Assembly: GCF_006538365.1 (NCBI RefSeq)
Contig: NZ_BJKN01000002.1
Span: 1-64,000 of the forward strand
Reading direction: 5' to 3'
Length of the DNA stretch: 64,000 nucleotides
From: Moorella sp. E308F
Lineage (GTDB): Bacteria > Bacillota > DSM-521 > Neomoorellales > Neomoorellaceae
Shown here: positions 47,081 through 49,758 of the stretch, piece by piece
How positions within the stretch are numbered: position 1 is the stretch's first letter
How the letters are laid out: each line of letters begins with the position of its first letter
Translations under genes and position numbers: made by a program
The notes under the pieces: generated by a model
Told to the model about the DNA's origin: nothing
Database searches by the model: none
What the model saw: only the letters and a program-made list of their open reading frames with translations

Positions 47081-47343
47081 CCCTCCGGAGCATTAGCAGC
47101 TTAATTTACCGGCGAAGGGGAGTTATTTCCTGCCAACACGGGAAAAATAACAATATAACTTACAGCGCGCAAATTAGTGCACCTGTTTGAGGCTCTGCTG
47201 CGCAGCAACCAGTTTTACATGCCCTAAGGGATTAAAGAGGGATTAGTTTAGCACTACTTATTGCCATTAATATTTGGTAATGAGATGGTTTTTATTGTCT
47301 TTTCTTAATCTAAACAGATTACCCTTTTACCGAGGTGATGTTT
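47081..47343. other. Gene-free, AT-richer stretch before the flavoprotein gene
   Basis: No gene or clear terminator is seen here. Base composition drops from GC-rich to AT-rich toward the flavoprotein gene, with runs such as TTTTTATTGTCTTTTCTTAAT near 47290-47310. The boundary of an accessory segment probably lies in this stretch. Confidence 0.5.
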
Positions 47344-47970
47344 ATGAAAATTCTTGGCGTGGTCGGCAGTAATAGGAAACATGGCAATACATCCGGTTTG
47401 GTGAAGGCAGCCTTGCAGGCTGCTGAAAAAGAGAATGCAGATACTGCGCTAGTTTTTCTAGGAGATTACTCAATTCAGGACTGCGTAGGATGTGAAGGCT
47501 GCAAAGATACAATGCGGTGTGTCATCAAGGATGATATGCAGAAGCTATATCCCCTTTTATTGGAAGCTGACGGGATTATTCTGGGGTCTCCGACTTATTT
47601 TTATAATATTACCGCTACTATGAAGGCTTTTATTGACAGGTGCTACTGCTTTGAAGCGTTTGCAAGGGATGATCGGGCCAGTTGGGTGGGGCTTCATGAA
47701 GCCTTAGGCATTAAGTATGCTGTTGTTATTGCTGTGTGCGAGCAGCATGATGAAGCAGATATGGGTTTTACCGCTGAAGCCATGATAAAACCCCTGGAAG
47801 CCTTAGGATACAGAATCATCAGCACTATAAAAGCGATTGGTTATTTTAAGGCGGGAGAAGCTTTGCAGGACGAAAGGGCTGTGGAGAATGCCCGGAATGC
47901 CGGAAAAAAGCTGGCAAGAACCATCAGCCTTCGTAAGGAGGTAGAAAGAAAAATGCAGGAAATAATCTAA
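47344..47970 (+). CDS. Iron-sulfur flavoprotein, NADPH-dependent FMN reductase family
   Basis: A 208-residue flavodoxin-fold protein. The FMN phosphate loop is GVVGSNRKHGNTSGLV, and the GSPTYFYNITATMKAFIDR segment is typical of Isf-type and FMN_red proteins. A compact cysteine cluster CVGCEGC plus RC (about residues 48-60) could hold a 4Fe-4S centre. ATG 47344 is 6 bases after GAGGTG. Codon use is more AT-rich than in the pyr operon. It converges with the LigM-like gene, stops overlapping by 4 bases; a redox role with that enzyme is possible but unproven. Confidence 0.82.
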   Translation: MKILGVVGSNRKHGNTSGLVKAALQAAEKENADTALVFLGDYSIQDCVGCEGCKDTMRCVIKDDMQKLYPLLLEADGIILGSPTYFYNITATMKAFIDRCYCFEAFARDDRASWVGLHEALGIKYAVVIAVCEQHDEADMGFTAEAMIKPLEALGYRIISTIKAIGYFKAGEALQDERAVENARNAGKKLARTISLRKEVERKMQEII

Positions 47971-49361
47971 AAGAGAAAGTATTTCCTGTAACGCGGAATC
48001 GTCTCCACATCCCGGTGTTCATTGCGGATTAGATCAATATACGGGTAGCGGGCAACTTTAACGCGAATCTCCTTCTGCGGCGTACCCGGGGTTCCCCAGA
48101 TCAAGGTTAGCTCTTTTCCTACCTCTGCATACCTGGGGTCAATAAACCCGAGAGATATCATCCTGTTGTAGTAATAGCTGCAAATTCGGCCGGTGCTGAT
48201 GCCGACCATCTTTCCATCCGCCATGACCTTGTCCGCGCGGTAAATAAATCCTTCGTCGGGCCATCCGGCAATATTTTCCTGATAAGCTATATCTAGCGGC
48301 TCAGCATCAATTCTTTCGCAGGGTTCCACTTCCCTGCCCCGGAACTGAGTGGCATACACAGCGGCGATATCCTCTGCGTTCCACTCCAGGGTGACTACAG
48401 TCCGCGGGGGATTTTGAGCAATCTTCTCCAGGGCCTTCCTGCCGGGAAATTCATGATTGAACTTTACAAGGTGTCCCCAGCCGACATCGTAAGGTGTCAC
48501 AAAGCGGACGTCCAGGTCGTCCCCAACGCTTCCCCGCAGCCGGCGGTTTATATTATAAATAGCAATATCAGGACGGTCTTTTAGGTAGACAGAGAGCCCC
48601 CCGTCAACCGCATAACGGCCCTCATCAGATTCAAACCAGGGGAGGGGATAATGAATATGGATGTTAGGGAACCCGCCTTCGGTATGGCTCAGGCAATAAG
48701 CATGGAAACCGAGCTTTTTCGCCCCAAATGACCTGCCTGACTCCCAGATCCGTTGATAGACCTCTTCAAAATCTTCCATGGGGTCGTGGACTTCATAGGC
48801 CAGATTTCCGGTCATACCCAGCCTGATTACCCTCATATCCTTGCCGTTGATTTTTGTCATGCGGTGGGTGGCGAATTTGATGTCGTGCAGGTCACACTCG
48901 CAGGCCTTCTCCAGGATTTCCAGCGATTTTTCCCCTGCGATCTGGATAAAGTATTCTCGTCCGGTGATGTCTTCGCCTTCTACGTCCATACCGCTTGTTT
49001 TAACGAGATAATCAATGGGAGGATTCAGCCAGTAGGTGCGGAAGGTATCCTCCGCAATTTTAATCACCACGCCGTCTGTCAGGATCTGCCCTTTTTCATT
49101 GCAAATGACGGCATGCCGGATTCCTTTTTCACCTAGATTGGCAAAATCGTTAACACAGACAGAGTTCAAAAAATTCACCGCATCAGGGCCTTTTAAGTCA
49201 TAAACCGGCGAGTTCATTAGACTGAGTCCGATCCAGGCGGTGGTTTTTGAGGCCAAAATCTCCTCTTTGTATCCTGTGTATTCAAAGGGAACAATCAGTC
49301 CTGGACCCAAAGGAAATAATAGAGTGGCACCCTCATACACCGGACTGTTTGGTGAATACAT
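47967..49361 (-). CDS. GcvT-fold methyltransferase resembling LigM/DesA aromatic O-demethylases
   Basis: A 464-residue protein, close to the 470 or so of LigM. It has the GcvT-fold folate-binding domain (for example RHAVICNEKGQILTDGVVI, TGNLAYEVHDPMEDFEEVY). The C-terminal block resembles LigM: VTPYDVGWGHLVKFNHEFPGR, VVTLEWNAEDIAAVYAT and GKELTLIWG. LigM moves the methyl group of vanillate to tetrahydrofolate. In an acetogen the methyl-tetrahydrofolate would enter the Wood-Ljungdahl pathway. The substrate is inferred; a betaine or DMSP-type demethylase is the alternative. ATG at 49361-49359 with an AGGAG site about 10 bases upstream. Confidence 0.8.
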   Translation of the reverse strand: MYSPNSPVYEGATLLFPLGPGLIVPFEYTGYKEEILASKTTAWIGLSLMNSPVYDLKGPDAVNFLNSVCVNDFANLGEKGIRHAVICNEKGQILTDGVVIKIAEDTFRTYWLNPPIDYLVKTSGMDVEGEDITGREYFIQIAGEKSLEILEKACECDLHDIKFATHRMTKINGKDMRVIRLGMTGNLAYEVHDPMEDFEEVYQRIWESGRSFGAKKLGFHAYCLSHTEGGFPNIHIHYPLPWFESDEGRYAVDGGLSVYLKDRPDIAIYNINRRLRGSVGDDLDVRFVTPYDVGWGHLVKFNHEFPGRKALEKIAQNPPRTVVTLEWNAEDIAAVYATQFRGREVEPCERIDAEPLDIAYQENIAGWPDEGFIYRADKVMADGKMVGISTGRICSYYYNRMISLGFIDPRYAEVGKELTLIWGTPGTPQKEIRVKVARYPYIDLIRNEHRDVETIPRYRKYFLF

Positions 49362-49758
49362 AATCCCATCTCCTTTTTAGGATAAATTAAATAAATTCAC
49401 ACCTCTGGCCTGGAGCAACCCGGATATCCGGTTTATGTTGTATCATCGAATAGCTCCACCTACCCACGCCACAAACTGGTTTGTCTTCCGCTCTCCTGTC
49501 GAAAAACTAAGGTAAATCCGACTTTCCTCCTCCTGTTTCCGGTTCGGCCGCGGCCGGTCTGTCTTCCGGTCTATATCTATCAAAACACTGCCCGTGGTCC
49601 CGGATCATCGTCAGTATGATCAGAAACCGAGCTCGTTTTTTCGTCATTTTTGCACAAGGCATCAACAAAAAGGGCAACGCCGGGATAGACGGGGCACTGG
49701 CAGCCACAAATATCACCCGGGGGAATAAAGCTACGTCAGCGGGGCGGCTCGTGCTTAT
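49362..49758. other. Stretch of about 400 bases without a supported gene, between the LigM-like gene and rqcH
   Basis: Short frames exist on both strands (plus 49616-49801, minus 49507-49716), but neither shows a family motif and neither has a convincing ribosome site. The promoter of the LigM-like gene should be at its left edge. The rest may be degraded accessory DNA. Confidence 0.45.

Follow-up and report, generated by a model that had tools for sequence, protein, structure and literature searches.

The locus and its genomic setting

The window (the whole stretch of DNA that was analysed, 64,000 nucleotides from Moorella sp. E308F) contains the following features of interest.

47967..49361, minus strand: SesA-type (GcvT/LigM superfamily) folate-dependent C1 transferase gene; 464 aa, ATG start
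49370..49374, minus strand: AGGAG, probable ribosome-binding site, 8 nt before the ATG; read from the sequence, kept in Moorella stamsii
49113..49118, minus strand: codons of Arg82-His83 (R81/H82 of SesA; Lys-Gln in LigM, x-Tyr in GcvT)
48696..48698, minus strand: codon of Tyr222, in the column of the LigM catalytic Tyr247 and SesA Y221
48684..48686, minus strand: codon of His226 (H225 of SesA; Thr in LigM, Arg in GcvT)
49362..49662, minus strand: 5' region of the SesA-type gene, delimited by blastn and alignment against M. stamsii
49662..49664, no strand: junction at which the divergent PucR-type regulator of M. stamsii (L022:7184-8761) is absent, from blastn and alignment
47335..47970, plus strand: NADPH-dependent FMN reductase/flavodoxin-like gene (Pfam FMN_red, 5.7e-26)

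The open reading frame that the initial annotation had placed at 47967-49361 is borne out by its start codon, length, strand and upstream AGGAG. Orthologues with 87-89% identity are found in M. stamsii and in another genus of the Moorellaceae (G016), and the dN/dS values are 0.11 and 0.04, respectively, which rules out a chance reading frame; the SesA-type frame is real and intact, and selection on it is purifying. Within Moorella, two of the 11 genomes have the gene; it also occurs in one further genus of the family and in five of the 398 sampled genomes of the phylum. Its GC content is 50%, that of the FMN reductase gene 45%, and that of the flanking housekeeping genes 59-61%. Composition and distribution mark the gene as a low-GC sequence that was acquired sporadically in the Moorellaceae.

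The order hsp33 - EamA - NFACT is found uninterrupted in one relative (G010). In M. stamsii the SesA-type gene and a divergent PucR-type regulator lie between EamA and NFACT, while in the window the FMN reductase segment takes the place of EamA. Upstream of the gene, blastn and alignment pair positions 49362-49433 and 49538-49662 with intergenic sequence of M. stamsii; an insertion of about 104 bp separates the two segments. The regulator has been lost cleanly, with window position 49662 corresponding to L022:8790 and 49664 to L022:7162, and no close copy of it was found elsewhere in the window genome (best match 44 bits). The region around the SesA-type gene yielded no sigma-70-type promoter.

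The FMN reductase gene is convergent with the SesA-type gene, their 3' ends overlapping by 4 bp, and its segment, joined exactly at the 3' end of the SesA-type gene, adds four residues to the C-terminus of the SesA-type protein. An operon of the two was rejected on account of this convergent arrangement and the absence of the neighbour from the M. stamsii locus, and the neighbour is not counted as a component of the system. Readthrough of the in-frame TAG of the two closest orthologues was also considered and rejected, as this is a normal stop after RYRK. The FMN reductase-like gene (47335-47970, 45% GC) encodes a cysteine cluster, GCEGCKDTMRC.

The deleted regulator, the foreign DNA and extra residues at the 3' end, and the presence of the gene in just 2/11 genomes of the genus could be taken to mean that a recently acquired gene is now in decay. 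This is very improbable, since the frame is open, the examined active-site columns are intact, dN/dS is 0.11, and the window branch carries no excess of changes (0.048, versus 0.086 for M. stamsii).

The window genome (3.06 Mb, 99.98% complete) encodes a separate, normal GcvT of 366 aa, and an acetyl-CoA synthase homologue in an open frame of 769 codons. The genome is thus acetogen-like, as had been proposed from the window. No components of a corrinoid O-demethylase (B12-binding, URO-D/MT) were found beside the SesA-type gene; URO-D-family genes occur elsewhere in the genome.

Family placement and active-site residues

The protein matches the GCV_T folate-binding domain of Pfam (4.9e-33), while its C-terminal barrel falls under the Pfam cut-off. 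Among family models the highest scores are for DesA (177 bits) and LigM (159), followed by TMAO demethylase (82), GcvT (75), sarcosine oxidase alpha (68) and DmdA (45); these values are far under the NCBIfam equivalog cut-offs for DesA (800 bits), LigM (580) and DmdA (410), and DesA proteins from sphingomonad genomes reach 833-837 bits with the DesA model. The best sequence match in the PDB is LigM (4.7e-30). In the predicted structure (mean pLDDT 90) the closest fold is again LigM (TM 0.77, E 2.6e-35), with the T-protein of Bacillus subtilis at TM 0.68. Together, these matches point to a single-protein, corrinoid-independent and THF-linked enzyme of the LigM superfamily, in agreement with the initial annotation.

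Homologues were gathered from genomes and plasmids, DesA being anchored by the NCBIfam cut-offs and LigM by the PDB-match sequence, and GcvT served as the outgroup. In a 67-row maximum-likelihood tree LigM and DesA form one clade (support 100/98), and the window protein belongs to a separate 51-row clade (99/97), within which its own clade of 18 rows has support 100/100. Forcing the trio containing the window protein into LigM/DesA costs 142 log units and is rejected (p-AU 7.6e-7), the group for this test having been picked once the first tree had been seen. The likeness to LigM and DesA that had been proposed from the sequence thus holds at the level of the superfamily, through top models, fold and PDB match, and fails as clade membership; the resemblance is real but distant (27-30% identity). 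LigM/DesA orthology is ruled out by the sub-threshold scores, the separate clade, the topology test and the absence of the motifs described below. The protein also falls in none of the other families against which a comparison had been called for: DmdA is ruled out by 44.6 bits against a cut-off of 410; sarcosine oxidase by family-model score, residues and tree; and GcvT by score, residues, outgroup position and size (about 365 aa).

The residues of the sesamin demethylenase SesA provide a more specific comparison. In PMC5547118, R81, H82, R100, R179 and H225 of SesA are described as the expected proton donors, while D95, E189 and Y221 are predicted to contact THF. Their counterparts in the window protein are R82, H83, D96, K101, R180, E190, Y222 and H226, so that seven of the eight residues are identical at a constant offset of +1, the eighth being the conservative change of SesA Arg100 to Lys101; this link to SesA is made through published residue numbers rather than a direct alignment. 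In the same eight columns LigM has K Q D Y R E Y T and GcvT has x Y D x R E R R. A relative from Arthrobacter sp. CAU 1506, 55% identical to the window protein and in the same 18-row clade (100/100), has all eight SesA residues at identical numbers. A search for SesA orthologues in 197 genomes of the Arthrobacter family returned the starting genome alone. SesA (Kumano et al. 2016) belongs to the same superfamily but comes from an aerobe, whereas the window gene stands alone in an acetogen.

According to the same paper (PMC5547118), BrdA lacks R81 and mostly Y221 and keeps H82 and H225. The sister clade in our alignment has the pattern K H D/E R R E A/V H, which is that stated for BrdA, and provides an independent cross-check of the SesA numbering. 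The BrdA berberine demethylenases (Takeda et al. 2017) would thus be the sister clade by motif; they share both histidines and the Arg/Glu positions with the window protein, and the BrdA-type proteins in our set differ from it in having Ala/Val for Tyr222 and Lys for Arg82 (30-34% identity).

LigM and DesA, the vanillate and syringate O-demethylases of Sphingobium SYK-6, resemble the window protein in fold, in size, in the acidic residues of the THF pocket and in the column of the catalytic Tyr247, to which Tyr222 is aligned. They differ in clade and motifs, and LigM has Gln and Thr at the positions of His83 and His226. Arg122 of LigM (in VGR), which we take to be the substrate-side arginine, is absent from the window protein, as are LFDQSHHM and GWIPSPLP; the window protein has Leu112, WIGLSLMNS and GFPNIHIHYPLPW. 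Published primers for DesA, LigM and dicamba demethylases (PMC9404685), translated here, encode LFDQSHHM and GWIPSPLP, and the two motifs therefore appear to be common to dicamba O-demethylases too. Thus, the O-demethylases considered seem to carry LigM-type motifs, and the proven demethylenases the His-His signature of the window protein.

These comparisons bear on two other functions. The protein could be a LigM-like but non-orthologous O-demethylase, which would transfer the methyl group of a methoxyphenol (for example methoxyhydroquinone or a guaiacyl compound) to THF and supply 5-methyl-THF to the Wood-Ljungdahl pathway. This would agree with LigM as the nearest solved structure, with the top rank of the DesA and LigM family models and with the kept catalytic-tyrosine column; O-demethylation is also a common trait of acetogens. 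Against this stand the rejected clade membership, the absence of all three LigM motifs and the presence of both demethylenase histidines. Alternatively, the C1 unit may come from a non-aromatic donor (dimethylglycine or sarcosine, DMSP, methylated amines, quaternary ammonium compounds) and pass to folate as in the GcvT domains of DMGDH, sarcosine oxidase and TMAO demethylase. The scores with the last two families are in keeping with this, but they and the corresponding folds rank below LigM, there is no fused flavin domain, and the Tyr and Arg of GcvT are absent at the two histidine columns.

Gene neighbourhoods of relatives

In anaerobes, a PucR-type regulator lies beside or near the gene at 26 loci (by locus clustering), mostly divergent and adjacent, and none of the nearest anaerobic relatives is accompanied by pathway genes from which a substrate could be named. 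More is seen in aerobes. Genes for hydroxyquinol 1,2-dioxygenase and maleylacetate reductase are found near three aerobic relatives, all of which fall in the window protein's own clade of 18-20 rows: those of Arthrobacter, Agreia and a plasmid of Sphingobium EP60837. The dioxygenase scores are 472 bits for Arthrobacter (versus 1TMX) and 357 bits for Agreia. Demethylenation of sesamol would release hydroxyquinol.

The Sphingobium protein is the nearest aerobic relative (62% identity), the two sharing a nine-row clade (100/99). Directly upstream of its SesA-type gene, and in the same orientation, are genes for maleylacetate reductase and a hydroxyquinol-type dioxygenase together with folD and folB; no metF was found in this locus. 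The co-directional set (Sphingobium sp. EP60837 plasmid pEP1, L157:11944-17386) is located on a conjugative plasmid and resembles a sesamol-type degradation cluster.

PurU and/or FolD are found beside 13 SesA- or BrdA-type loci. The two fit a methylene-THF product, as both are needed to turn methylene-THF into formate. Hydroxyquinol genes near the relatives would also fit methoxyhydroquinone as the substrate of an O-demethylase; this is less fitting because methyl-THF needs MetF, for which no gene turned up at these loci, and the nearest aerobic relative has folD without metF. The missing MetF is itself weak evidence, because MetF is scarce near LigM-type loci too (one weak match in 13), and its presence was dropped as a discriminator between the clades. 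Overall, the aerobic neighbourhoods suggest a methylenedioxyphenol substrate and 5,10-methylene-THF as the product. With the residues, they point away from the methoxyaromatic substrate and methyl-THF product that had been proposed, and we regard O-demethylation of a methoxyphenol by the window protein as rather unlikely.

One anaerobic locus points the other way. A BrdA-type paralogue (genome G197, L035:3626-10652) is accompanied by two MFS transporters, a corrinoid protein and MetF; this MetF and corrinoid context would fit a methyl-THF product and counts against the demethylenase reading. The locus also encodes an FMN reductase that belongs to the family of the window neighbour.

On plasmids of Psychrobacter and Deinococcus (L160:1219-3482 and L159:7923-10323, respectively), a more distant SesA-like gene lies by an SMR multidrug efflux gene and a TetR regulator, and it is conceivable that it encodes a demethylating enzyme for a cationic substrate. 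That such distant paralogues adjoin SMR efflux genes on small plasmids would agree with a non-aromatic C1 donor, but the close aerobic relatives lie in aromatic catabolic clusters; for the window protein, we consider such a donor improbable.

Two further associations were seen. A recurrent neighbour of the SesA-type gene, in anaerobes as well as in Sphingobium, encodes an NmrA-type NAD(P)-binding protein (L041:5284-6228, L039:3136-4080, L045:7003-7965, L047:6932-8017). In genome G197, a set judged by eye to comprise a malate-CoA ligase-like pair, a CoA-ester lyase of the malyl-CoA lyase type and a malic enzyme (L033:325-5166) directly precedes a tandem pair of SesA-like genes and a PucR regulator.

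Predicted reaction and its place in acetogens

Considering fold, clade, residue conservation, purifying selection, the neighbourhoods of relatives and the acetyl-CoA synthase homologue in the genome, we favour, with a probability of about 0.58, the reading that the gene encodes an anaerobic THF-dependent demethylenase of the SesA/BrdA group, which delivers methylene-THF to the Wood-Ljungdahl pathway. Counting against this reading are also Lys101 in place of the SesA Arg100, the lost regulator of the window gene and the lack of substrate-naming genes near the closest anaerobic relatives. The protein should be labelled a SesA-type demethylenase candidate, not a LigM-type O-demethylase.

In the proposed mechanism, THF would be held in a GcvT-type pocket, with Asp96 and Glu190 in the folate-contacting columns, and would attack the acetal carbon of a methylenedioxyphenyl ring. 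The candidate substrate is a plant compound of the sesamin, sesamol or piperonyl type. His83, His226, Arg82 and Arg180 would supply protons to the leaving phenolate oxygens, with Tyr222 in a central position; the bridging carbon would pass to THF, with a catechol and 5,10-methylene-THF as the products. For SesA, 5,10-methylene-THF is the reported product (PMC9560768, citing Kumano 2016). Neither oxygen nor a corrinoid protein nor an activating enzyme would be required. Direct delivery to the folate pool by the window enzyme is plausible: methylene-THF would feed the Wood-Ljungdahl methyl branch at a point one step ahead of the methyl-THF of O-demethylation, and in Moorella it would be reduced to methyl-THF for the synthesis of acetyl-CoA.

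Most, if not all, of the O-demethylases characterised from acetogens are corrinoid-based (PMC12915777). The three-component enzymes, such as MtvABC of Moorella thermoacetica, would have the same sink, the Wood-Ljungdahl folate pool, but consist of unrelated proteins, whereas the window enzyme consists of one polypeptide that lacks a corrinoid-binding domain, and its gene has no corrinoid gene next to it. The characterised THF-dependent demethylenases found in the literature come from aerobes, and a search of open-access literature turned up no SesA-type enzyme described from an acetogen. The SesA-type enzyme is of a known kind; the acetogen setting is unexpected. If the demethylenase reading is true, it would add a class of substrates for acetogenesis whose carbon enters as methylene-THF instead of methyl-THF, so that the redox balance would differ.

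The same clade occurs in gut bacteria, which would provide gene candidates for the anaerobic cleavage of the methylenedioxy rings of dietary lignans and alkaloids. In a broader form, which we put forward tentatively and at somewhat less than even odds, acetogens and gut anaerobes (Moorella, Acetobacterium, Fusibacter, Lachnospiraceae, Coriobacteriaceae) would use SesA-type enzymes to open methylenedioxyphenyl groups without oxygen or corrinoid, the bridge carbon entering acetogenesis as 5,10-methylene-THF; the gut members would then be candidates for the anaerobic step from sesamin-type lignans to catechols on the way to enterolignans.

The genome of the acetogen Acetobacterium wieringae DSM 1911 (G412) contains five paralogues of the LigM/SesA superfamily (including those at L053, L122 and L130), and the paralogue at L053 is located near genes of the corrinoid-methyltransferase type.
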